64,000 bases of DNA from a virus, in IMG/VR virus record IMGVR_UViG_3300021127_000002, positions 56,203-120,202 of that record, one strand, 5' to 3'. The notes beneath the pieces were generated by a model, which had not been told where the DNA came from, ran no database searches, and was given only the letters and a program-made list of their open reading frames with translations. Shown one piece after another: positions 3,691-23,699 of this stretch (within the stretch, counting starts at the first letter, position 1; every line of letters starts with the position of its first letter). The translations under genes were made by a program, and so were the position numbers.

Positions 3691-4715
3691 CCTTTTGTTT
3701 TCATTTTACCAGACACATATTGCAAAAGTTGTGATTTATCGTTTGCAACGGTATCAGAGTAAACAGCATCCATAGCCAACTTCAATCCAAGACCAACTTT
3801 TTCGTTTTTAAAGCCCAGACTTTCCAGATCATTACCATTAATAGCTAATTGTTTATATGATATCGGATATCTACCATCTTCGAAAAATGGTAATACGTTA
3901 TCCAATTCGTTCAATATGAAATAACTATCAAACATTGTCGGCGCAATCTTATTTACACCAAAAACCATCCATTTATCCTCAAGGTCAGTTCTCACAGGTT
4001 TATCCATAACCAATTGTAAGGCTTTCATTTCAGCATGAGTCTTCAAATCACCTTTCATAACTTTCATGAAATAAGCTGCTGGGTCTTTTGTAATTGGTTG
4101 TAATAACCAATAAATAAATTCACTTAGTTTGTTGACATGATTAAATGGTTTGAATGAGCCAAGAAACCTGCTATCAAAAATACCTTCATATAAACCAGAC
4201 TTAACCAACAAAGTGACACCAACATAGGGTGAACCTTTATCTACAATCTTTTGAAACTCTTCTATAACCCTTTCAAACGCTATTGTTTTGATTGAATCGG
4301 CGTTTTTTTGAATCATATCAAAAGTATGAGGCTCAATTGTGAATCCAAACCTCGAAGCAAATTGAACCGATCTTAGCATTCTCAAAGGGTCATCAGCAAA
4401 AGCTTCAGGATTTGTTAAACGTATAGTTTTTGTTTTAATATCTTCAATACCCTTGTATGGATCAATTAGATTACCTTCAGCATCCTTAGCTATTGAGTTG
4501 ATAGTAAAATCACGCCTTTCAAGATCCTTTTCAATTGGTAGAGTATGGTCGGAAGTCACATCAAATCCTTTATGACCAGCTAAATTTTTTATCTTAGTCG
4601 GCTTAATTGTTTTATTTAAAAAACTAATTATATTTTCTGGTTTATTGTAAACAACTCCGTTAATGACATTGAAACCATTTAATTCTAATAGTTGTAATAT
4701 TTTTTTCTTATCCAT
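3687..4715 (-). CDS. CCA-adding/poly(A) polymerase, C-terminal half (split gene)
   Basis: This 342-residue ORF carries the downstream half of a class II tRNA nucleotidyltransferase. HKGFDVTSD and LERRDFTINSIA are followed by LIDPYKGIEDI and DDPLRMLRSVQFASRFGF, then a long helical body. It lacks the N-terminal GGxVRD and DxD catalytic motifs, which sit in 5681-6451. The two halves are separated by a Vsr-like endonuclease gene. Its own ATG at 4715 overlaps the endonuclease end. The first 40 or so residues do not look like the family and were probably recruited at insertion. The halves could assemble into a working enzyme or be decaying. Confidence 0.8.
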   Translation of the reverse strand: MDKKKILQLLELNGFNVINGVVYNKPENIISFLNKTIKPTKIKNLAGHKGFDVTSDHTLPIEKDLERRDFTINSIAKDAEGNLIDPYKGIEDIKTKTIRLTNPEAFADDPLRMLRSVQFASRFGFTIEPHTFDMIQKNADSIKTIAFERVIEEFQKIVDKGSPYVGVTLLVKSGLYEGIFDSRFLGSFKPFNHVNKLSEFIYWLLQPITKDPAAYFMKVMKGDLKTHAEMKALQLVMDKPVRTDLEDKWMVFGVNKIAPTMFDSYFILNELDNVLPFFEDGRYPISYKQLAINGNDLESLGFKNEKVGLGLKLAMDAVYSDTVANDKSQLLQYVSGKMKTKG

Positions 4716-11739: not shown

Positions 11740-11961
11740 ATGTCTTATAAACTTGATAAAGTTAATACAAATGTAAAATATAAACATTTTAAAAAAATTA
11801 TTTCGATGAATAATAATACTGGTGAATCAATCGATTTCAAAAAAGTAAAGGAAGCTGCGTCATATTATGGTGTAAGCGCCTCTTCAATTTATCAAATATT
11901 AAGTAAACAAAGAGAATATATTTATTCATCCAAAGGAAAAATTAATTTTATATATGAGTAA
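11740..11961 (+). CDS. Orphan NUMOD1-like DNA-binding module
   Basis: 73 residues with GESIDFKKVKEAASYYGVS then ASSIYQIL, the helix-turn-helix of NUMOD1 modules normally attached to homing endonucleases. No nuclease domain accompanies it. It sits between two intact genes and may be an HEG remnant or a free-standing DNA-binding protein. Confidence 0.55.
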   Translation: MSYKLDKVNTNVKYKHFKKIISMNNNTGESIDFKKVKEAASYYGVSASSIYQILSKQREYIYSSKGKINFIYE

Positions 11962-13729: not shown

Positions 13730-13783
13730 ATGAAATTTAATAGTAACGAAAGAAATATCTGGTTTACATCAGATACACATTAA
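13730..13783 (+). pseudogene. Truncated 5' fragment of a metallophosphoesterase gene (first copy)
   Basis: ATG at 13730 opens MKFNSNERNIWFTSDTH and stops at TAA 13781-13783. SDTH is the first metal-binding motif (DxH) of calcineurin-like phosphoesterases. The rest of the gene is missing here. A homing endonuclease gene follows, and then a second version of the same N-terminus with the full body. Confidence 0.7.
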
Positions 13784-13831
13784 TTTTTCATAAAAATCAG
13801 TATATTTATATGTGTATAAAACTATATAAAT

Positions 13832-14719
13832 ATGGAAAAATCATTAAATAGAATATGTAAAACTTGTGATAAAGTTTTAAAATATAAATCAATTGAAAGT
13901 TTTAAATGTTCTGAGAAAGAAGGAACAGAATGTAGGAGCTGCTCAACAAAAAAATATGTTAAAAGAATTGGTGATGCGAATTATTTGTTAACTGATAATT
14001 TAGATACTTATTATTGGGTTGGTTTTATATTAGCTGATGGTCACATCGAAGATGGACGGTTATCCATTACCTTATCAGGTAAAGATAAAGAACATTTAAA
14101 TAAATTATCTGAACATTTATATGTTAAAACACAAGATAAAATTAATAATAAAAAATATTCGGCTTGCATACTTTCCTTAATGCATAAAGATATTATAAAT
14201 ATTTTTGTTGATCGTTTTGATATTAAATCAAATAAAACTATAAATCCACCAAATATAAATGTTTTCAAAAACTTGGATTTTGATAAATTATTTAGTATAT
14301 TTATTGGGTTTACTGATGGTGATGGAAATATTCGTAAATTACATAATAGATGCGATTTTCATATAAGAATTAAAACGCATAAAAATTGGTTGCCTGTTTT
14401 AGATTATTTTAATAATGTTTTGGATTTAGGTGGACATACAAGAATTAATAAATTGGGATATGCTACTTTAGAAATTAGTAATAGTGTATTTTGTAAAAAA
14501 ATTAAAGAAAAGGCTATTGGTTATAATTTACCTTTCTTGGAAAGAAAATGGTCTGAAATTGATTTATCCTTTGTTGGTAGAAATGAAAAAGCTGATCAGA
14601 ATAAAATTGCTATTTTTAGAATGTTAAATGAGGGTTTATCACATAAAGAAATTTATAAAAAATTGAATATAAGTAAATCATCCTATTATCAATTAATTAA
14701 AAGAAATAATATATGTTAA
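13832..14719 (+). CDS. LAGLIDADG homing endonuclease
   Basis: 295 residues. An N-terminal zinc-ribbon-like segment (CKTCDK, then CRSC) precedes two LAGLIDADG-type motifs, WVGFILADGHIE near residue 65 and FIGFTDGDGNIR near residue 155. A C-terminal helix-turn-helix reads LSHKEIYKKLNISKSSYYQL. It is inserted in a metallophosphoesterase locus right after the codons for the catalytic SDTH motif. Its stop overlaps the ATG at 14713 of the second copy. Confidence 0.8.
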   Translation: MEKSLNRICKTCDKVLKYKSIESFKCSEKEGTECRSCSTKKYVKRIGDANYLLTDNLDTYYWVGFILADGHIEDGRLSITLSGKDKEHLNKLSEHLYVKTQDKINNKKYSACILSLMHKDIINIFVDRFDIKSNKTINPPNINVFKNLDFDKLFSIFIGFTDGDGNIRKLHNRCDFHIRIKTHKNWLPVLDYFNNVLDLGGHTRINKLGYATLEISNSVFCKKIKEKAIGYNLPFLERKWSEIDLSFVGRNEKADQNKIAIFRMLNEGLSHKEIYKKLNISKSSYYQLIKRNNIC

Positions 14720-15330
14720 AATTTAAAACAAATACGTCCGAGGCTTCTGCAAGAAATTTGTGGTTTACCTCGGACACGTGAACACATTATTCTCATAAAA
14801 ACTTAATTAAAAGCTTAACGACTTGGGAACGTGGTGCCATTCGTGATTTTCAATCATTGGATGAACATAATCAAACACTTGTTAAGAATATTAATAATAC
14901 GGTAAAATATGATGATGTTTTATTCATTCTTGGTGATATTGCGTTCGGTGGTTTTGAAAACGTAAGAAAATTTATGGATCAAATACATTGTCAAGAAAGA
15001 TATTTGATATTGGGTAATCATGACTCACATATAAAGAATAATCGTGATAATTTACAAAATTGCTTCACAAAAGTTTCTAAACAAGAAGATGTTATTATAG
15101 ATGATGACTTATTCGTTTTATTCCATTATCCTATTCTTGAATGGGAAGCGTGTCATAAAGGGAGTTATCATCTATATGGTCATCAACATAATTTGCCACA
15201 AAACCGTTTTAGCAACGGAAATGGTAGGACGATGGATTGCGGTCTTGACGGACATCCAGAATTTCGTCCATACCATTACAATGAAATTATTGAACTACTC
15301 AAAAAAAGAGAGATAAAGGTTCATCATTAA
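14713..15330 (+). pseudogene. Metallophosphoesterase, second copy, with in-frame TGA in the DxH motif
   Basis: From ATG 14713 the frame reads a start homologous to the first copy (ARNLWFTSDT), then TGA at 14779-14781. It then continues in the same frame as THYSHKNLIK through FILGDIAFGG (GD motif), LGNHDSHIK (GNHD), FHYPILEWE and YHLYGHQHN to 15330. The family would expect DTHY; six extra bases including the stop lie inside it. The part after the stop can only start at TTG 14857 and would lack the first metal motif. It is broken, or made by readthrough. Confidence 0.7.
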
Positions 15331-15380
15331 TTTGCTTTTATCAAACCATTTGATTACTATTGTATTGTAAATAAATATAA

Positions 15381-16169
15381 ATGCGTAAAAAGTTAAGATA
15401 CGATCTCACACCACCATATGCTATCGAGCAGCTTGCTGAAGTTATGACATATGGGTCTGAAAAACATGGTGACAGAACTTGGGAAAACGGTAGAAAGTGG
15501 TCAGATGTATTGGCCTGTGCAGAGAGGCATATCAATGCTATAAAACGTGGTGAGGATTTTGATAAAGAAACAGGTCTTTTGCATTCATCTATGGCAATGA
15601 CACAACTTGCCTTCCTCACCGAATATTACAAAATATACCCACAAGGTGATGACCGAAGACATAGATTCCTTAAACCACCAAAAATTGGTCTCGATATTGA
15701 CGATACAATAAATAATTTTATTGAGTATTATTGTGATTGGTTTCATTTAGATAAACCTCATTTCTGGAGTTTTGATAGAAAAATGGCGGAAAATTTAAAA
15801 AAATTAGATAATAATAAAGAATTTTGGTTAAATATACCTCCTAAAATAGATCCAAAGTCTTTAGGTTTTTCACCAGATTGCTATATAACAGCCAGATCTA
15901 TAAGACAAGATTGGACTGAAGAATGGTTAAGTAAATATGGATTTCCATCAGTCCCTGTTTTTAGTGTTGGCTATGGAAAATCTAAAGTTGATATTGCAAA
16001 AAATGAAAATATTGATTTTTTTATTGATGATAGATTTGAAAATTTTGTTGAACTAAATGAAAATGGTATTTGTTGTTTTTTATTCGATGCCTTACATAAT
16101 AAAAAGTATGATGTTGGTTATCGTAGAATTATGGATTTTAATGATTTCGTTAATAGATTTATAAAATAG
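15381..16169 (+). CDS. dATP/dGTP pyrophosphohydrolase-like domain fused to 5'(3')-deoxyribonucleotidase (HAD)
   Basis: 262 residues in two domains. Residues 1-95 match the phage MazG-like dATP/dGTP diphosphohydrolase family: YDLTPPYAIEQLAEVMTYG, then HGDRTWENG and ERHINAIKRGEDFD. Residues 100-262 are a HAD nucleotidase of the NT5C type: IGLDIDDTINNF as motif I, CYITARS as motif II and DFFIDDR as motif IV. Together they could take dNTPs to nucleosides in one polypeptide, shaping the nucleotide pool during infection. Both halves look intact. Confidence 0.7.
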   Translation: MRKKLRYDLTPPYAIEQLAEVMTYGSEKHGDRTWENGRKWSDVLACAERHINAIKRGEDFDKETGLLHSSMAMTQLAFLTEYYKIYPQGDDRRHRFLKPPKIGLDIDDTINNFIEYYCDWFHLDKPHFWSFDRKMAENLKKLDNNKEFWLNIPPKIDPKSLGFSPDCYITARSIRQDWTEEWLSKYGFPSVPVFSVGYGKSKVDIAKNENIDFFIDDRFENFVELNENGICCFLFDALHNKKYDVGYRRIMDFNDFVNRFIK

Positions 16170-16205
16170 GATTAGATTTACAAAATGTTTTAACTATTAG
16201 ATAAA

Positions 16206-16442
16206 GTGAATAATCAAAAATTGAAATGTATAAAAAAAGAAGTATTTCTTATTAAAGATGGTGAAAAAATAAAGAGATTTGATTCATTGTTAGAATGTGC
16301 TAAACAATTTAAAATCTCACCAAGTCATCTATCTAAAATGATTAAACAAAATAAATTAATAAATGGTTTATTATTTGTTTTAGGTGAATCTTCTTTTAAA
16401 GAAACTCCATATAAAGGAAAATCAAATTTTATAAATAAATAA
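16206..16442 (+). CDS. Orphan NUMOD1-like module
   Basis: 78 residues with KIKRFDSLLECAKQFKISPS then HLSKMIKQNKLINGLLF, a NUMOD1-type helix-turn-helix. The start at 16206 is GTG. It lies between the nucleotidase fusion and a gene with a premature stop, so it may be debris from an HEG event there. Confidence 0.5.
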   Translation: MNNQKLKCIKKEVFLIKDGEKIKRFDSLLECAKQFKISPSHLSKMIKQNKLINGLLFVLGESSFKETPYKGKSNFINK

Positions 16443-16451
16443 ATTAATAAT

Positions 16452-16718
16452 ATGACACGTCAATAAGTTTATGAGGCAATCGATGGTGAGCGGAACTATC
16501 AAGAAGCGATGAGTAAAAACAAGTACCGCCCAGACATTATAAAAGATTTTCATCTTGGAGATGCATTATCAGCAATCCAACATAATCTTAACAAAGCACA
16601 TGAAACATGGTACAAAGGTTCTGACCCACATACTAACACCATGGAGCTTTTCAGAAAAATATCGGCACTATGTGTTGCTCAAATGGAAAAATATGGCGTT
16701 GATAAACGTATTGAATAA
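16452..16718 (+). pseudogene. Small phage conserved protein with in-frame TAA at codon 5
   Basis: From ATG 16452 the frame reads MTRQ, TAA (16464-16466), then VYEAIDGERNYQEAMSKNKY and on to CVAQMEKYGVDKRIE at 16718. Known phage relatives start MxRQxVYxxIDGERxYQ, so the stop replaces a normally coding position; CAA to TAA is the simplest change. A shorter product of 69 residues could start at ATG 16509. No function is known. Confidence 0.6.
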
Positions 16719-16742
16719 TAAAATAAATAAAAATTAAAATTT

Positions 16743-17450
16743 ATGCAAGAACAAATTAATGTGGTTGACACAGAAAAAAAATTAAATCAAACCGAAATTG
16801 TTGTTATATTGGATCGTTCAGGTTCAATGTCAAGTATTGCTAAAGCAACTGTTGAGAACTTTAATAAGTTTTTAAACGAACAAAAAAATGCTGAAGGTGA
16901 AGCATTTGTAACTTTGGTGCAATTTGATGACAGATATGAATTGAATTATAAATCCACACCAATTAAAGACGTTAACGACTTAGTATATGGTGAAACCTAT
17001 CAACCAAGGGGTTCAACAGCATTACACGATGCTATTGGTAAAACAATCAATGAATTGGAAAAAACTGACCGTGATATCATTATGGTAATTATCACTGATG
17101 GTGAAGAAAACGCCAGTAGAGAATATAAAGGTAATGCTATCAAAAACATAATCGAACAAAAAGAAAAGGATAACTGGAAATTTGTTTACCTGGGTGCAAA
17201 TCAAGACGCTATTTCTGTTGGTGGCGCAATGGGTATGTCTGATAAAAGTACTCTTAGTTGGGCTACAAATGATAATTCGATAGGTGCAACATATGCGGCA
17301 TTCAGTTCTAATATAAGGTCATATAGAAGCGCTAAAACAGCTTCTTTAAAGAGCATGAGTGTTGGTGATGAAATAAATTTAAATGCTGTAATGGACAACC
17401 TTAAAGATGAATTAAATTTTACTGATAAACAAAGAAAAGAATCTAAATAA
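16743..17450 (+). CDS. von Willebrand factor A domain protein
   Basis: 235 residues. EIVVILDRSGSMSSI supplies the MIDAS DxSxS motif near residue 22. GSTALHDAIGKTI near residue 95 holds the second metal Thr and IIMVIITDGEENAS the third Asp. No signal peptide or membrane anchor, so it is cytoplasmic. Stand-alone vWA proteins usually scaffold complexes; the partner is unknown. Thioredoxin starts 2 bases downstream. Confidence 0.8.
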   Translation: MQEQINVVDTEKKLNQTEIVVILDRSGSMSSIAKATVENFNKFLNEQKNAEGEAFVTLVQFDDRYELNYKSTPIKDVNDLVYGETYQPRGSTALHDAIGKTINELEKTDRDIIMVIITDGEENASREYKGNAIKNIIEQKEKDNWKFVYLGANQDAISVGGAMGMSDKSTLSWATNDNSIGATYAAFSSNIRSYRSAKTASLKSMSVGDEINLNAVMDNLKDELNFTDKQRKESK

Positions 17451-17451
17451 T

Positions 17452-17763
17452 ATGATAGAAATTAAATCGAAAGCTCAGCTTGATGAAGCTATAGCAAGCA
17501 ATGACAAAGTTGTTGTTGACTTTTATGCACCATGGTGCGGTCCTTGCAAAATGTTAACCCCATTGTTGGAAACAATGTCCAAGGAAAATAATGATGTTGC
17601 CTTCTTCAAGGTAAACGTTGATGAAAATGCTGAATTATCAGCAGAATATGGTATACAATCCATACCCCATGTATTCCTTATGAAAGGTGGTAAAACAATG
17701 GAACAATTCAAAGGAATTCAACCAAAGCCTAAGATTAATGAGATGATTAACAATTTGAGATAA
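17452..17763 (+). CDS. trxA: Thioredoxin
   Basis: 103 residues, full family length, with VVVDFYAPWCGPCKMLTPL (the WCGPC active site near residue 30), NVDENAELSAEYGIQSIPH (cis-Pro) and VFLMKGGK. A cytoplasmic disulfide reductase that may supply electrons to a nucleotide reductase or act as a polymerase cofactor. A terminator follows. Confidence 0.92.
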   Translation: MIEIKSKAQLDEAIASNDKVVVDFYAPWCGPCKMLTPLLETMSKENNDVAFFKVNVDENAELSAEYGIQSIPHVFLMKGGKTMEQFKGIQPKPKINEMINNLR

Positions 17764-17785
17764 TTTATCATTAATTAAATTTATA

Positions 17786-17819
17786 AAACCACCTAAAAAA
17801 AATTAGGTGGTTTTTTGTT
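17786..17819 (+). terminator. Rho-independent terminator after thioredoxin
   Basis: AAACCACCTAA pairs with TTAGGTGGTTT across an A-rich loop and is followed by a T run. It ends the vWA-thioredoxin unit. Confidence 0.85.
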
Positions 17820-17838
17820 TTTTAAAATTATTATTGTA

Positions 17839-17880
17839 TTTATTATTTAGGGTACAAATATTTGTACCCTAAATAATAAA
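17839..17880 (+). promoter_or_regulatory. Perfect 42-bp palindrome just upstream of the RNA ligase start
   Basis: The two 21-base arms meet without spacer at 17859/17860 (core GGGTACAAATATTTGTACCC) and end 3 bases before the ATG at 17884. As RNA it would form a long hairpin that could hide the start; as DNA it could be an operator. There is no T run, so it is not a terminator. It lies in the only sizeable gap of this stretch. Confidence 0.75.
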
Positions 17881-17883
17881 CTT

Positions 17884-19224
17884 ATGTCATACACAGCAAT
17901 TGTAACAAGATTAAAAGATGTAAGGCCACATTCAAATGCGGATAAAGTGCAGTTGGCAACTTGCCATGGTAACCAAGTGGTTATTGGATTGGATTCTAAG
18001 GAATCTGAATGGGGTGTGTATTTTCCGTGTGACGGACAATTATCTGACGAATTCTGTAAAGCCAATAATCTTTATAGGGATAATACTAAGAACAAAAATA
18101 CTGAAGCTAAGCCAGGTATGTTTGATGATAACCGTAGGGTTAGGGCTCAAAAGTTTCGTGGTGAAATTTCAGATGGGTTTTGGGTTCCATTACACTATTT
18201 TGCATTCATTGAAATAACTGGTCTTGATGTGGAAGGTTACGAATTCGACACTTGGAAAGGTGTACCTATCTGTAATAAATATGTTAATCCAGCAACTGTT
18301 AAAGCGGCTAAGGAGAATCAACCAAAGAAAGTTCGCAAAGCAAAAACATCTGAAATGTTCTTTGAACATATCGATACCAAACATATGATTGTTAACATTG
18401 ATAAAATCGAACCAAACGATTTAATTATCATCACATCTAAGCAACATGGAACATCTGGAAGGGTTGGTCACGTGTTGATTGACAGAAAGTTAACAACAAT
18501 CGAAAAGATTGCAAAGTTTTTTGGTGCCAAAATCAAAGAAAAGGATTGGTCATTTCTAAATGGAACAAGAAGGGTTGTTATTGAGGAAAGCTCAGGAACA
18601 CAATTCCATGATCCAACAATTCGTGATAAAGCATTCAACCTATTTAAAGACAACCTGAGAAAAGGTGAAACGGTATATTTTGAAATTGTTGGATATGAGT
18701 CACTTGGCAGACCAATTATGGGTATGGTGGATACAACAAAAATTGGTGACAAAAACTTCACCAAGTTGTATTCAAATGCTGGTGATAATAAACACATGAT
18801 TTTCAAGTATGGTTGTGCTGACGGTCAATCAGACGTATTTGTTTACCGTATGACAATGACAAATGAAGATGGTAAAATGGTTGACTACTCATGGGATGAC
18901 GTTAAAAGACGTTGTTCTGAAATCGGTGTTAAACACTCACCAGAACTTGACCGTTTTACGGTAAATGAATTTAAATTAAGACATAACATCACTGATGACC
19001 GTGATTTTAATGACAAATTCATTGAATATGTTAACCAAGTTTCAGATGGTGTCGACCCAACTGACTCAACACACTGGTCAGAAGGTTCATGTATCAGACT
19101 TGAATCAGGCCTTGCTGTTAGGATCTTCAAACATAAGAACTTCAACTTCAAAGTGTTAGAAGGAATTATTAAGGATTCTGGGTTTATTGACGAAGAGGAA
19201 GCACAATCTGAAGTCATAAATTAA
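17884..19224 (+). CDS. RNA ligase, DraRnl/Rnl5-like with N-terminal OB-type domain
   Basis: 446 residues. The first 140 form a beta-rich domain (IVTRLKDVRPHSNADKVQLA), as in DraRnl-like ligases. The nucleotidyltransferase follows: motif I is TSKQHGTSGRVGHV with Lys near residue 188, and motif III/IIIa is VYFEIVGYESLGRPI. Motif IV is EGSCIRLESG and motif V is RIFKHKNFNFKVLE. It would seal RNA 5'-phosphate/3'-OH nicks through an adenylate on that Lys. The kinase, 2H-CCA, RlaP and cREC genes nearby supply the healing steps. Its own terminator follows. Confidence 0.8.
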   Translation: MSYTAIVTRLKDVRPHSNADKVQLATCHGNQVVIGLDSKESEWGVYFPCDGQLSDEFCKANNLYRDNTKNKNTEAKPGMFDDNRRVRAQKFRGEISDGFWVPLHYFAFIEITGLDVEGYEFDTWKGVPICNKYVNPATVKAAKENQPKKVRKAKTSEMFFEHIDTKHMIVNIDKIEPNDLIIITSKQHGTSGRVGHVLIDRKLTTIEKIAKFFGAKIKEKDWSFLNGTRRVVIEESSGTQFHDPTIRDKAFNLFKDNLRKGETVYFEIVGYESLGRPIMGMVDTTKIGDKNFTKLYSNAGDNKHMIFKYGCADGQSDVFVYRMTMTNEDGKMVDYSWDDVKRRCSEIGVKHSPELDRFTVNEFKLRHNITDDRDFNDKFIEYVNQVSDGVDPTDSTHWSEGSCIRLESGLAVRIFKHKNFNFKVLEGIIKDSGFIDEEEAQSEVIN

Positions 19225-19245
19225 CAAAAAAAATATGTAATAATT

Positions 19246-19290
19246 GGAGTTCCTTTACTAATTATATATAGTAGGGGAATTCCTATTTTT
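19246..19290 (+). terminator. Hairpin terminator after RNA ligase
   Basis: GGAGTTCCTTTACTA (19246-19260) pairs along 15 positions, with G-U wobbles, with TAGTAGGGGAATTCC (19269-19283) around an 8-base loop. A short T run follows. Confidence 0.65.
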
Positions 19291-19310
19291 ATATATAATA
19301 AGACATATTT

Positions 19311-19318
19311 TATATTTG
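19311..19318 (+). promoter_or_regulatory. Promoter -7 box before clpP-like gene
   Basis: TATATTTG at 19311-19318, 5 bases before the ATG at 19324. The matching upstream TTTG is weak, so this is a partial match. Confidence 0.4.
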
Positions 19319-19323
19319 TTAAT

Positions 19324-19896
19324 ATGAGTAAAAGTAAGCAAGAAGATTTAGATATTGAAGAGCCTTCCAGGGAAATTGTGTTATTTGGTGACATTGATAA
19401 GGAAATTGTTGCTGAAGCTGCTAATCTCATATTAATAATTAATGAATATGATACAAAAATGGAGAAGGCTGATTCTAAATATGAGAGAATGCCGATAAAT
19501 TTCCATTTATGTAGTGAGGGTGGTGATGTAGCTGCTGGTGGTGCAATTATTGGGGTAATAGAGTCATCTAAAACCCCTGTTCATATTTGGTGTTATGGTT
19601 CTATTATGTCAATAGCTTTGAATATTGCTGTATCAGGACATTATGTAAAAGCGCATAGGATGTGTAGATTTATGTATCATGAAACAAGTCTTATCGGAGA
19701 GATAAACTCTACCTTGACTACTATGAGTAGTGACCTGAAGGAAAACATGGCATTGGATCAATTATATGATGACCATTTGATTGAGAGAACCAAGTTGAGC
19801 AGAAGAAAGATGACTTTAGCAAAGAAGATGAAGACAGATTGGTACTTTGGAGCTGATGAGGCATTGAGGTATGGAATAATTAACGAAATTTTCTAA
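19324..19896 (+). CDS. ClpP-family serine protease
   Basis: 190 residues. Strand motif REIVLFGDIDKEI, then LCSEGGDVAAGGAII as the oxyanion-type Gly motif. WCYGSIMSIALNIAVSGH carries the nucleophile Ser near residue 99, and RMCRFMYHETS carries the His near residue 121. In phages ClpP-like proteins serve either as prohead protease or regulated protease. No capsid genes are nearby, so a regulatory role is more likely here. Confidence 0.8.
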   Translation: MSKSKQEDLDIEEPSREIVLFGDIDKEIVAEAANLILIINEYDTKMEKADSKYERMPINFHLCSEGGDVAAGGAIIGVIESSKTPVHIWCYGSIMSIALNIAVSGHYVKAHRMCRFMYHETSLIGEINSTLTTMSSDLKENMALDQLYDDHLIERTKLSRRKMTLAKKMKTDWYFGADEALRYGIINEIF

Positions 19897-19901
19897 AAAA
19901 A

Positions 19902-19933
19902 TTTGGTTGTTAATTATTTAATGCTTATTTTTG
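19902..19933 (+). promoter_or_regulatory. Bacteroidota-type promoter before PRPP-synthetase-like gene
   Basis: TTTG at 19902-19905 and TATTTTTG at 19926-19933, 20 bases apart; the ATG lies at 19950. Confidence 0.6.
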
Positions 19934-19949
19934 TAAAAAATTATAAGCG

Positions 19950-20915
19950 ATGACAGATGTATTAAATCTGGTTAACCCTACAAATAGTATAAAATATGAA
20001 ATTAGCCGTTTCCCAGACGGTCAGCAGTCATTAAGACTGATAGAAGAAAATATACATACATTCTACGGTATTACAAATCAAACAATACCTATCAAAATTA
20101 AATCCAGATTGAATAATTTTCAGGATCTGGAACTTATTATTTGTGCCACACAAGCTCTTCGTGGTATAGGTGTAAAATCAATTGAATTATACATTCCATA
20201 TTGTATGGGTGCCAGAAGTGACAGAAAGTTCATGGAAGGTGGTATTAATTACGTTAAACACGTTATTGCTCCTATTATCAATTCTCAAAATTACGAGTCC
20301 GTTACTGTGGTTGATCCTCATTCAGATGTGCTTGAGGCATGTATAAATAACTTCAAAAAAATTGATAACACTGAGTTGGCACGTTTTGCTTTATCTGATT
20401 ATCTCAGAACGCAAATCCAGGATGGAAAATTTACCGATGGGGATAAAATAGCTCTAAATTATGACAATGTTCGTTTTATATCTCCTGATGCTGGTGCTTT
20501 GAAAAAAGTATTTCATGTGGCAGAAGCTTTGAAATACAAAAATGAGGTAATCATTGCTTCAAAACATCGTAATCTTGATACTGGTAAGATTGATTACACA
20601 AATGTTCACATGTCAGTAACAGATGCTGACAAAGATTTCTTTATTTTTGATGATATTTGTGATGGTGGTAGAACGTTTATTGAAATTGCAAAAACAATCC
20701 AAGAACGTAGAAATTTATCAAGTTCGGTACAACCAAAAGATTACGGCAATATTTACTTGGTGGTAACACATGGTATATTTAGTGCTGGTTTATCTGAACT
20801 AAGTAAATACTTTACAAAAATCTATTGCACGAATAGTGTTAAAGATAAAGCTGATATCAATTTTTCAGATATTACCATTAAAGAAGATTTCATTCAACAA
20901 TTAAATGTTTTTTAA
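19950..20915 (+). CDS. Ribose-phosphate pyrophosphokinase-like enzyme (PRPP or ADPR-PP synthetase)
   Basis: 321 residues. ISRFPDGQQSLRL, YCMGARSDRKF, TVVDPHSDVLEA, FISPDAGALKKV, the PRPP-loop FFIFDDICDGGRTFIEIA and VTHGIFSAGLSEL are in the order of the Prs family, at family length. Prs makes PRPP from ribose-5-phosphate and ATP. A related phage enzyme, Adps of the NARP1 pathway, pyrophosphorylates ADP-ribose. A NAMPT-family gene 2.9 kb downstream makes the NARP1 reading plausible, but which substrate is used cannot be told by eye. Confidence 0.85.
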   Translation: MTDVLNLVNPTNSIKYEISRFPDGQQSLRLIEENIHTFYGITNQTIPIKIKSRLNNFQDLELIICATQALRGIGVKSIELYIPYCMGARSDRKFMEGGINYVKHVIAPIINSQNYESVTVVDPHSDVLEACINNFKKIDNTELARFALSDYLRTQIQDGKFTDGDKIALNYDNVRFISPDAGALKKVFHVAEALKYKNEVIIASKHRNLDTGKIDYTNVHMSVTDADKDFFIFDDICDGGRTFIEIAKTIQERRNLSSSVQPKDYGNIYLVVTHGIFSAGLSELSKYFTKIYCTNSVKDKADINFSDITIKEDFIQQLNVF

Positions 20916-20917
20916 AA

Positions 20918-21481
20918 ATGGGTTGCGATATTCATATGTACGTTGAGTACACTAATAGAGAAAAATATAATAAATACAATCAGGATATAAAATACTCATC
21001 ACCTGAAGAAATCAAAAATATTCAGAAACCATATTGGTATTCTTTCGGTGGTAAATTCAACCCTGGTAGAAATTATGCTATGTTTGGTATTTTATGTGAT
21101 GGTGTTAGATGTTCTTTTGCAGAATCATTTTCAGCTAAGGGTTTACCACCTTTGGATGAACTTGGTTTTTATTCAAAGATTGATGCGTATATGTATATTA
21201 CCGAAGATGGTAAAGGTGAAAATGAATGTACTCTTGAACAGGCCGAAAGATGGGGTAATGAAATTATTAAAGATAATTTTGGTAAAACAAGATATACATC
21301 ACAACCAGATTGGCATTCATTTTCTTGGCTTACAACTCAGGAATTTGCGAAGGCAATCAAAATCCATGATAAATTGGATACTTTTAATATTGCTATTGAA
21401 TATCGTGCTATTCTTGCCGCAATGAAGATGCTTGAGAAGGGCAATAATATTGCCAGAATAGTTTTTTGGTTTGATAATTAA
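20918..21481 (+). CDS. Conserved phage protein (MGCDIH family)
   Basis: 187 residues starting MGCDIHMYVEYTNREKY, with RNYAMFGILCDGVR near residue 50, SAKGLPPLD and DWHSFSWLTTQEF. This start and the RNYxLFGxLxxVR motif recur in a widespread phage protein family of unknown function. It follows the Prs-like gene by 2 bases, so it is in the same operon. Confidence 0.65.
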   Translation: MGCDIHMYVEYTNREKYNKYNQDIKYSSPEEIKNIQKPYWYSFGGKFNPGRNYAMFGILCDGVRCSFAESFSAKGLPPLDELGFYSKIDAYMYITEDGKGENECTLEQAERWGNEIIKDNFGKTRYTSQPDWHSFSWLTTQEFAKAIKIHDKLDTFNIAIEYRAILAAMKMLEKGNNIARIVFWFDN

Positions 21482-21484
21482 TTT

Positions 21485-21895
21485 ATGAATAAATTGGAAA
21501 CAAAATCTTTGGTTGTTAAACAATCAACCATACCTAATGCTGGTAATGGTTTATTTGCCAAAAGATTTTTTAAGAAAGATAGTATAATTGGATACTTCAA
21601 AGGTAATATAATATCGAATGAGGAAGTTAATTCTATAAACGATTCTGGACATATTAAAAGATATTATTTAGTTGAACTTGATGATTATAAAACATTGGAT
21701 ACATATGATTATCAATCACCTGTAATTTATGCAAATGATGCTGAAGGGTTGACCAAAATTGATGGATTTGCAAATAATTCTTCTATTGGTATAACAAAAA
21801 ATAGAAGTAGAGCATATATTTACGCAACAAAAGATATACCTGTTGGTTCAGAAATATTCTTAGAATATGGAGAAGATTATTGGTTAAATTTATAA
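21485..21895 (+). CDS. SET-domain protein
   Basis: 136 residues. IPNAGNGLFAKRFFKKDSII is the SET N-motif, FANNSSIGITKNRSRAY stands where NHSCxPN is expected, and DIPVGSEIFLEYGEDYW carries the catalytic Tyr. SET domains transfer methyl groups to protein lysines. The substrate could be a host or phage protein. The NHS motif is altered, so activity is uncertain. Confidence 0.7.
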   Translation: MNKLETKSLVVKQSTIPNAGNGLFAKRFFKKDSIIGYFKGNIISNEEVNSINDSGHIKRYYLVELDDYKTLDTYDYQSPVIYANDAEGLTKIDGFANNSSIGITKNRSRAYIYATKDIPVGSEIFLEYGEDYWLNL

Positions 21896-21906
21896 AAACA
21901 TAAAAT

Positions 21907-22233
21907 ATGAAAACACTTTTATTTATTCCCTTGTTGTTTATAACAATATTATGTTATTCACAATCAAAACTTGCCGTTCCAAATGCATTTACACCAAATA
22001 ATGATAATGTGAATGATAGATTCAAAATCGTGAATTTAACATCAGAGAAAATATTAGATTTCTGCGTGTTTAACCGTTCTGGTAGATTGATATATCGATC
22101 AACAGATAATTCTGGTTGGGATGGCTCCTATAATGGTATTCTTCAAGATATGGGTTCATATTACTATCAAATCCGATATACATCTAATGATAGTTTATAT
22201 ATGTTAAAAGGTAATGTAATTCTAATACGATAA
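21907..22233 (+). CDS. Exported protein with gliding/T9SS type B sorting-like C-terminal domain
   Basis: 108 residues. A signal peptide (LLFIPLLFITILCYSQ) is followed by AVPNAFTPNNDNVNDRFKIV, FCVFNRSGRLIYRS, GWDGSYNG and SYYYQIRY, then KGNVILIR. That is essentially the whole CHU_C/type B C-terminal sorting domain found on proteins secreted by the type IX system of Bacteroidota. Here the domain is alone, with no cargo. The host is therefore likely to have T9SS. Confidence 0.8.
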   Translation: MKTLLFIPLLFITILCYSQSKLAVPNAFTPNNDNVNDRFKIVNLTSEKILDFCVFNRSGRLIYRSTDNSGWDGSYNGILQDMGSYYYQIRYTSNDSLYMLKGNVILIR

Positions 22234-22383
22234 ATAAAAATATAACGATAATATATCAAAGTCCTTTATGATGGAAGAAAATATAAAATTTGGTGGCGGT
22301 TCATGGACATGCAAAAATGTGGTATGACTATATATAGTTCGAGCATAATTCACGATTGTAAACCTTTATTTAAAAATGAAAAT

Positions 22384-22503
22384 ATGGAAACATTTAATTA
22401 TGAGTATGATCCTAATATGGAAAGATACATTTCAAGATTAGTTAAGGAATGGAAGGAACATAAAAAAATTATTTTATGCGTTGACTTTGACGATCAAGGG
22501 TAG
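22384..22503 (+). pseudogene. Truncated 5' copy of the HAD hydrolase gene
   Basis: 39 residues homologous to the N-terminus of 23250-23699 (METFNYEYDPNMERYISRL, then VKEWKEHKKIILCVDFDD), stopping two codons after the catalytic DFDD. A 29-base run including GTTAAGGAATGGAAGGAACA is identical in both copies, while much of the rest differs at third positions. A GIY-YIG endonuclease gene follows directly. Confidence 0.7.
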
Positions 22504-22534
22504 AATTTTGTCCTTTTCCCATATATTTATTGTT

Positions 22535-23245
22535 ATGAAAGCAATATATGGAATAGTAAACAAAATCAACGGTCATAAATATGTGGGATCGGCTGTAAAC
22601 TTTTATAAACGTAAAACAATACATTTACGACAATTAAAAAAAGAAATACACCATTCCGACTATCTGCAAAGAGCCTGGACTAAATATGGTGAGGATAATT
22701 TTGAATTTATCATACTTGAAAAGGTCGATAAAAAAGAGGATTTATTGATTCGTGAACAATGGTGGATCGATAACTCAAACAGCGAATATAATGTTTGTAA
22801 AGTTGCTGGCAGTTCGTTAGGCGTTAAACGTAGTGATGAAACAAAGGAAAAATGTCGATTGGCACATCTTGGTGAAAAACACCCAGAATGGCGAAGAAAA
22901 TTAAAATCCGAAGCACAAGGTGGTGAGAAACATTGGCAGTATGGTAAAAAAATGCCAGATGAAGTTAAACAAAAAAAATCGGAAAGTATGAAAAAGTTTT
23001 TTAAAACAAACACACATCCAATGAAAGGTAAAAAAAGTACTTTAACTGAACAAAGCAAAGAATCAATGATTGATAAATTATCAATACCAATTCAACAATA
23101 TACTAAAGAAGGTGAATATATACGAGATTGGAAAAGTGCAAAAGAGGCTGGAACTGAATTAAATATATTTCCCACAAACATTACAACTTGTTTGAAGGGT
23201 AAAGTTAAAACCGCTGGAAAATTTATTTGGAAATATAAAAATTAA
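22535..23245 (+). CDS. GIY-YIG homing endonuclease with NUMOD3/NUMOD1 modules
   Basis: 236 residues from ATG 22535. IYGIVNKINGHKYVGSAVNF is the GIY-YIG core, and REQWWIDN holds the metal Glu. Several NUMOD3-type segments follow (KEKCRLAHLGEKHPEW, HPMKGKK), then a C-terminal NUMOD1 (DWKSAKEAGTELNIFPTN). It sits between a truncated and an intact copy of one HAD gene. Confidence 0.85.
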   Translation: MKAIYGIVNKINGHKYVGSAVNFYKRKTIHLRQLKKEIHHSDYLQRAWTKYGEDNFEFIILEKVDKKEDLLIREQWWIDNSNSEYNVCKVAGSSLGVKRSDETKEKCRLAHLGEKHPEWRRKLKSEAQGGEKHWQYGKKMPDEVKQKKSESMKKFFKTNTHPMKGKKSTLTEQSKESMIDKLSIPIQQYTKEGEYIRDWKSAKEAGTELNIFPTNITTCLKGKVKTAGKFIWKYKN

Positions 23246-23249
23246 TACT

Positions 23250-23699
23250 ATGGAAAATTTTAACTATGAATATCATCCGAATATGGAAAGGTATATTGTA
23301 AGGCTTGTTAAGGAATGGAAGGAACATAAAAAAATCTTGTTGGCGATTGACTTTGACGATACACTTTCACCCTGGAAATTTGATGACTTTAACTATGAAG
23401 AAGTATTCAAATTGGTTAGGGAAGCTAAGGAACTTGGTGCTTATATTGTAATTTTTACTGCATGTAAGCCAGATAGATATGATTACATTAAAGATTATTG
23501 TTTAACTAAAGGTGGGTTTGAGATTGATGGTGTTAATGAAAACGTTATTGAATTACCATATGGTAATAATAGAAAAATATATTATAACCATTTGTTGGAT
23601 GATCGTACAGCATTGTTACCTGCAATGGCAATATTATCCATTGCCATGATGCGTGTCAAGACTGATGGTAAAAATGGCGGTGATGATTTTGATGTTTAA
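23250..23699 (+). CDS. HAD-like hydrolase, intact copy
   Basis: 149 residues. LLAIDFDDTLSPWKF is HAD motif I near residue 33, IVIFTACKPDRYDYI motif II and NHLLDDRTALLPA motif IV. The C-terminus is Gly/Asp-rich (KNGGDDFDV). The substrate is unknown. A truncated copy of its first 39 codons lies on the far side of the adjacent HEG. Confidence 0.7.
   Translation: MENFNYEYHPNMERYIVRLVKEWKEHKKILLAIDFDDTLSPWKFDDFNYEEVFKLVREAKELGAYIVIFTACKPDRYDYIKDYCLTKGGFEIDGVNENVIELPYGNNRKIYYNHLLDDRTALLPAMAILSIAMMRVKTDGKNGGDDFDV

Follow-up and report, generated by a model that had tools for sequence, protein, structure and literature searches.

The window, that is, the whole stretch of DNA analyzed here, comprises the last 64 kb of a 120-kb viral contig (IMG/VR record IMGVR_UViG_3300021127_000002). 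Two loci within it share one arrangement: a 5' gene fragment, an endonuclease open reading frame (ORF), and a full-length copy of the same gene (Table 1). At locus 1, the target encodes a calcineurin-like phosphoesterase (PF00149/phrog_547, assigned through a relative in the related phage G003) and the endonuclease is of the LAGLIDADG type; at locus 2, a HAD-like gene is paired with a GIY-YIG endonuclease. The interrupted spots are DxH at locus 1, the metal motif of calcineurin-like phosphoesterases, and DxDxT at locus 2, a motif of HAD enzymes. The initial annotation of this DNA described the order as truncated exon, endonuclease, and re-encoded target gene, and this order is present in the sequence at both loci.

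The sequence G001, obtained from a different sample, is 99.997% identical to the window phage over 66,223 nt, and L030, L031, L013, and L011 are exact matches over the stretches that each covers. Because these contigs carry the same sequence, an assembly error in a single contig is excluded. Protein-level self-comparison of the whole 120-kb contig, excluding its repeat-rich far end, identified loci 1 and 2 as the only endonuclease-flanking duplications among the matches listed. The remaining duplications of the contig lie in a repeat-rich region or are pairs with no intervening endonuclease.

Table 1. Positions of the features of loci 1 and 2 in the window
Feature	Positions	Strand	Basis or remark
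Locus 1, phosphoesterase 5' relic, MKFNSNERNIWFTSDTH*	13731..13784	+	17-codon open frame; weak homology on to ~13800
Locus 1, LAGLIDADG homing endonuclease ORF with C-terminal helix-turn-helix (HTH)	13832..14719	+	weak PF14528/PF00961 matches; HTH tail
Locus 1, full phosphoesterase, starts MLKFKTNTSEASARNLWFTSDT	14713..15330	+	start codon overlaps endonuclease stop
Locus 1, re-encoded, apparently mobile 5' part of phosphoesterase	14713..14784	+	87-89% to G004; rest of gene, 63-64%
Locus 1, hairpin in re-encoded 5' part, 8-bp outer and 6-bp inner stem	14736..14775	+	folding z-scores; 14/14 pairs kept
Locus 1, putative take-off ACG, stop TGA, and putative landing ACA at DxH (6-nt insert)	14776..14784	+	direct reading
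Locus 1, native phosphoesterase 3' part (HYSHKN... to stop)	14785..15330	+	background divergence from G003 and G004
Locus 2, HAD-like gene 5' fragment, METFNYEY...VDFDD then QG*	22384..22502	+	94% to G004 gene start (104/111 nt)
Locus 2, GIY-YIG endonuclease ORF with NUMOD3 motif	22535..23245	+	PF01541, E 3.4e-11
Locus 2, full-length HAD-like gene (DFDDTLSP), phrog_1238	23250..23699	+	uniform ~75% to G003 and G004

The phosphoesterase gene is a mosaic with its boundary at DxH

Most DNA matches between the window phage and G004, a related 320-kb phage, are 66 to 80% identical. The phosphoesterase genes of these two phages are 87 to 89% identical to just past a short insert at DxH and 63 to 64% identical from there on, a changepoint reached in 0/500 shuffles. 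The identity profiles therefore indicate that the same insert-bearing 5' part is joined, in each of the two phages, to a 3' part native to that phage. G003 and G004 are closer to one another (83% overall, and 94% in SmpB) and share the gene order SmpB, phosphoesterase, next gene; the window phage has a different upstream neighbor. Their phosphoesterase genes are 42% identical (gaps counted) up to DxH and 90% identical from CACTATTCC on, again with 0/500 shuffles. These sequence comparisons strongly support a phosphoesterase 5' part that, up to DxH, moves as a unit apart from the rest of the gene.

The endonuclease next to this 5' part differs among the three phages. In G003, a LAGLIDADG ORF lies directly upstream of the phosphoesterase, with no relic and with another motif change (SDPH versus SDTH). 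The window ORF has the same location and is 34% identical to it, and the 5' parts that follow the two ORFs differ. G004 has no endonuclease upstream of its phosphoesterase; KIKRNNIC*, which matches the final codons of the window endonuclease, is nevertheless readable before the start codon, either as the remnant of a lost endonuclease or as a conserved leader. A DNA search of deposited phages with the re-encoded 5' part returned partial, weak matches only, and LAGLIDADG scans of viral contigs found nothing beyond the same phage and G003.

The fragment upstream of the window endonuclease (relic 1) begins MKFNSNER, compared with MKFNTNER in G003, and has neither the 15-nt extension nor the insert of the downstream copy. 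For these reasons, we read it as the native gene end. Its stop looks like the outcome of a 2-nt indel, and homology seems to extend to position ~13800 (CATAAAAATC). Relic 1 may be the displaced native 5' end of the phosphoesterase, although identity over 50 nt does not prove a native origin.

G004 carries a second LAGLIDADG ORF (302478-303347, opposite strand) between its phosphoesterase and a 3'-end fragment of a second phosphoesterase. Identity between G004 and G003 drops from 0.90 to 0.61 exactly after TACGGACAC (GHxH; 0/500 shuffles). In its sequence, the G004 3' end is the mirror image of the 5' cases: a re-encoded 3' end, an endonuclease, and a displaced 3' relic, as in the fungal mitochondrial layout.

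A stop codon, a short insert, and a hairpin lie at the DxH motif

At the motif, the window copy reads GAC ACG TGA ACA CAT TAT, with an in-frame TGA and a 6-nt insert, and G004 reads GAC ACG TA ACG CAC TAT at the same site, with a 5-nt insert. The core GTRAC is common to the two inserts. The initial annotation had the layout of locus 1 right and overlooked this stop-bearing insert. In each phage, ACG is followed directly by a stop (ACG TGA in the window, ACG TAA in G004) and then by a landing codon that matches it, ACG in G004 and ACA, for the same amino acid (Thr), in the window. The 181 codons downstream of the insert are open in the window and in G004. Downstream of the motif, the ratio of nonsynonymous to synonymous substitution rates (dN/dS) between G003 and G004 is 0.12, a value that spans pre-insert time as well and speaks for a functional phosphoesterase.

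Two simpler ways around the stop were rejected. An alternative code with TGA as Trp is out, as 15 of the 85 long open frames end at TGA, a normal stop here. In the window, readthrough of TGA would yield D-T-x-T-H and so disrupt the spacing of DxH; in G004, the frameshift would persist.

A 40-nt hairpin stops immediately 5' of the ACG codon. Compared with shuffled sequences, its folding z-score in the window is -3.42 for a 66-nt stretch and -2.20 for 118 nt, and that in G004 is -2.47. Between the two phages 14/14 pairs are kept, including one A-U to C-G double change (a silent Arg change plus Leu to Val). The covariation score was reached by 254/500 shuffles, and two sequences cannot prove covariation. 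We infer that a hop from one Thr codon to the other would restore the DxH motif, as in T4 gene 60. A full programmed bypass at this insert seems to us a serious possibility, a little short of an even chance.

The HAD-like gene at locus 2 gives a different picture

The fragment and the full copy at locus 2 share 81% DNA identity over 37 codons, and the duplication therefore exceeds chance. In the stretches read, G003 and G004 have a single copy of the HAD-like gene each. Identity to the G004 gene is 94% for the window fragment and at background, ~75%, for the full copy (Fisher, 2.4e-6). Because the fragment, not the copy, is anomalously close to G004, a native fragment followed by an imported replacement is not the simple reading here. 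Either the whole copy arrived with the cassette, or the fragment was imported, perhaps as a 5' end that arrived first and was displaced when another cassette entered. The initial annotation considered that each cassette might bring in an uncuttable 5' part, or a whole copy, of the gene it interrupts. The swap boundary at DxH supports a carried 5' part at locus 1; at locus 2, with a full copy at ~75% throughout, no such support was found, and recoding, which was expected to be stronger near the junction, is no greater there than elsewhere along the evenly diverged copy.

The endonuclease of contig L012 is 58% identical to the window GIY-YIG protein and has the same layout and the same target family, a likeness that suggests an old association of the endonuclease with the HAD-like target. 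The HAD-like copy of this contig (L012:4708-5113) reads through only via a -1 shift in a seven-T run (GAA TTT TTT TGG) or from a TTG start, possibly a second recoding event or a homopolymer error. Away from HAD-like genes, 24 nt of L006 (4180-4203) are identical to the 3' terminus of the GIY-YIG ORF in the window, a possible endonuclease remnant.

The layout is enriched among GIY-YIG loci

We surveyed GIY-YIG loci of IMG/VR (85 usable, in 66 clusters) for protein-level duplication within ~150 nt on both sides of the ORF, with 313 other ORFs from the same contigs as controls. Flanking duplications were found for 8/66 endonuclease clusters and 2/313 control ORFs (p 2e-5). The layout is enriched beyond the two loci of the window, as a general mechanism of the kind first proposed would have it. 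Six of the clusters are real by eye. Four are of the 5' type: the window, L012, L085 (PurZ-like; the relic ends at HNAG), and L091 (rIIA-like). L087 (clamp) and L144 (helicase) are of the 3' type. One ORF that was taken out of the controls, in L087, is itself an HNH endonuclease next to a displaced end of a helicase gene. This phage has an HNH and a GIY-YIG endonuclease, and displaced 3' ends of a helicase gene and a clamp gene, respectively, follow them (L087:1769-2321 and 3968-4634).

About nine in ten of the sampled GIY-YIG loci are without the layout, and none of ten GIY-YIG loci from genome contigs has it. Several candidates were set aside. The GIY-YIG gene of L105 (3900-4620) lies between two near-identical copies of a terminator-like hairpin, and L108 is of low complexity. 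In Streptomyces phage Jada (L168:2665-3600), a LAGLIDADG gene lies between two copies of VRGYWxWQSRRNxPEMGS; the near-identical phage Forrest is without the endonuclease and both copies, and the case was not counted. The isolates phiR1-37, Goe21, PJN02, and VD13, in which genes are annotated as split, have no convincing duplicated flanks, and neither do the crAss-like and Enterocloster loci.

Several features lie apart from these loci. Two short, free-standing NUMOD-like ORFs in the window (11740-11961 and 16206-16442) are perhaps endonuclease tails. A perfect 21-bp inverted repeat without a spacer (17839-17880) lies just upstream of a 446-amino-acid (aa) ORF at 17884. Repeat-rich coding sequence is found in contig G000 (1-6000) and on the minus strand of L033 (5698-8205), where an 835-aa protein is rich in GTSGSSGTSG repeats.

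Proposed mechanism and alternative explanations

The layout, the swap boundaries at motifs (at locus 1 and its mirror case), and the enrichment are directly seen. We think it probable that these are intronless and inteinless homing-endonuclease insertions and that each endonuclease gene moves together with an attached, re-encoded end of the gene it targets. We further infer that the enzymes cut at the motifs, that the re-encoded ends resist cutting, and that repair takes the following route. The endonuclease would cut the gene of a related phage at a conserved catalytic motif; repair would then copy in the endonuclease together with the donor gene end and rejoin the recipient's remaining part at the cut site. 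Where the outer neighbor gene is also homologous, both ends could recombine and the displaced end would be lost, as is seen in G003 and G004, where no 5' relic remains. Where homology exists on the inner side only, the outer end would be joined illegitimately and the displaced end kept as a relic (window locus 1; possibly locus 2, L012, L085, and L091). The resulting order would be recipient upstream sequence, displaced end, illegitimate junction, endonuclease, donor end, and the rest of the recipient gene, with the mirror image, a re-encoded 3' end and a 3' relic, in G004, L087, and L144. The SmpB neighbor pattern, in three phages only, fits this route of one-sided homology. A more tentative extension, to which we give rather less than an even chance, is that the cassettes carry a re-encoded 5' end whose cut-site protection is the stop-bearing insert of 5 to 6 nt, hopped with the help of the upstream hairpin; this would be a miniature T4 gene 60-type system, spread between phages with or after the endonuclease.

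Several points weigh against this interpretation. Very few LAGLIDADG loci were sampled. Percent identity does not place the short relic 1 nearer to G003 than to the other sequences (33, 35, and 39 of 50 nt). The locus 1 copy holds a stop and replaces the gene only if that stop is bypassed. At locus 2, it is the fragment that is close to G004, and the changepoint test of the full copy against relatives found no significant swap boundary. As for the enrichment, its cut-offs were picked after inspection, making the p value indicative, and two of the eight clusters are not real cases.

The strongest competitor, with perhaps one chance in three by our judgment, is that the stop- and insert-bearing phosphoesterase copies are debris of cutting and misrepair, dead versions of a dispensable gene. 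Two different inserts at the same motif, each with an immediate stop, and the indel in relic 1 are what such scarring would leave. The open 181 codons downstream in the window and G004 and the dN/dS of 0.12 (with its pre-insert component) speak against dead genes, as do the insert core and hairpin common to the two phages, whose whole 5' part moved together. Nearly as credible, though still unlikely overall, is insertion into a tandem paralogue or a partial imported copy; at locus 2, a fragment and endonuclease from a G004-like phage would have landed before an intact native gene. The disparity in identity to G004 and the copy without a changepoint favor such an origin at that locus, against which stand the single HAD-like copy of G003 and G004 and, at locus 1, a copy that is itself a mosaic with its boundary at the motif. 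The tandem paralogue and illegitimate repair had been offered as alternatives from the outset; one-sided repair after cutting, combined with a carried gene end, accounts for the parts of the layout and allows the two to be merged.

Ordinary intronless homing with co-conversion, as for the T4 seg and mob endonucleases, differs from the favored reading mainly in emphasis: the DNA from the endonuclease to the cut site is co-inherited, and the relic is a by-product. A swap boundary at the cut site is likewise expected from co-conversion, for which T4 is a precedent (PMC2988022), and the majority of the sampled GIY-YIG genes stand alone between other genes, without duplication. Co-conversion accounts less well for a relic upstream of the endonuclease, which indicates, for window locus 1 at least, entry into a gene rather than into the space between genes, and for the 3' relic left by the G004 mirror case. 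We regard it as improbable. Far less likely still is a self-splicing intron that joins relic 1 to the 3' part of the gene. An endonuclease ORF splitting a gene is the usual picture of an intron, but the 64-kb window has no Rfam match at gathering scores, and hence no ribozyme core around the ORF; the endonuclease start codon follows the fragment stop after just 47 nt, the 5' part recurs in the copy, and in G004 a copy with the same start lacks any exon upstream. Tandem group I introns in L014, assigned by sequence features, look different. We rejected the intron on the grounds of the Rfam result, the spacing, and the exon-less G004 copy. Insertion of an endonuclease gene joined to a re-encoded gene end would show how, in phages, such a gene can enter a catalytic motif without an intron or intein, and one-sided homology would give a simple reason for the relics.

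Comparison with known systems

The initial annotation suspected an undescribed class, which is partly right: the 3' type is known from fungal mitochondria, and we found no described 5' version in phages. Our literature search returned no phage cassette with a re-encoded 5' gene end, an absence that is weak evidence, as subscription papers were mostly outside the search. The mirror image (PMC3630166) and the T4 mobA/gene 60 arrangement (PMC5009743, PMC3014915) were already known.

In fungal mitochondria, mobile ORFs bring a replacement C terminus (Allomyces atp6; Glomus atp6, atp9, cox2, and nad3; PMC3630166). As in those elements, a LAGLIDADG or GIY-YIG ORF is present without an intron, and a foreign, re-encoded end is fused to the native gene with its boundary at the insertion motif, which holds for locus 1 and the G004 3' end and not for locus 2. 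In the fungal elements, the displaced native end is kept beyond the ORF, and divergence is strong in DNA while the protein is conserved; relics are present here too. The fungal elements replace the 3' end, a polarity matched by G004, L087, and L144, whereas the window loci are at the 5' end, in a phage, one of them with a stop and insert at the junction. The mechanism proposed here would tie phage insertions to these mitochondrial elements.

T4 mobA, which lies beside gene 60, splits a gene whose downstream part holds a bypassed 50-nt insert proposed as protection from the nuclease (PMC5009743, PMC3014915); the elements of this bypass are a 5' stem-loop, a take-off codon, a stop, and a matching landing codon (PMC11194080). 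Locus 1 likewise has an endonuclease that splits a gene and, downstream, an insert with a putative take-off codon and stop, a matching landing codon, and a predicted upstream stem-loop. The insert here is 5 to 6 nt rather than 50, the codon is for Thr rather than Gly, and the hop is predicted from sequence; in addition, the sources on mobA and gene 60 (PMC5009743, PMC3014915, PMC11194080) describe no duplicated 5' part. If the hop is true, it would be a rare further programmed bypass in phages, again at the target of a homing endonuclease, and the idea that bypass originates in protection would become directly testable.

The free-standing T4 seg and mob endonucleases (PMC2988022) are similarly intronless, have their own frame, and lie beside their target (a position that the swap boundaries suggest here), with co-conversion of flanks expected. 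Unlike the endonucleases described here, they typically lie between genes, cut at a distance, and leave no displaced gene fragment. Short frame-breaking inserts that are skipped in translation occur in Magnusiomyces mitochondria (PMC5009743), at 81 sites of one mitochondrial genome with relaxed decoding, in contrast to the putative skipping at a single site in a phage gene.

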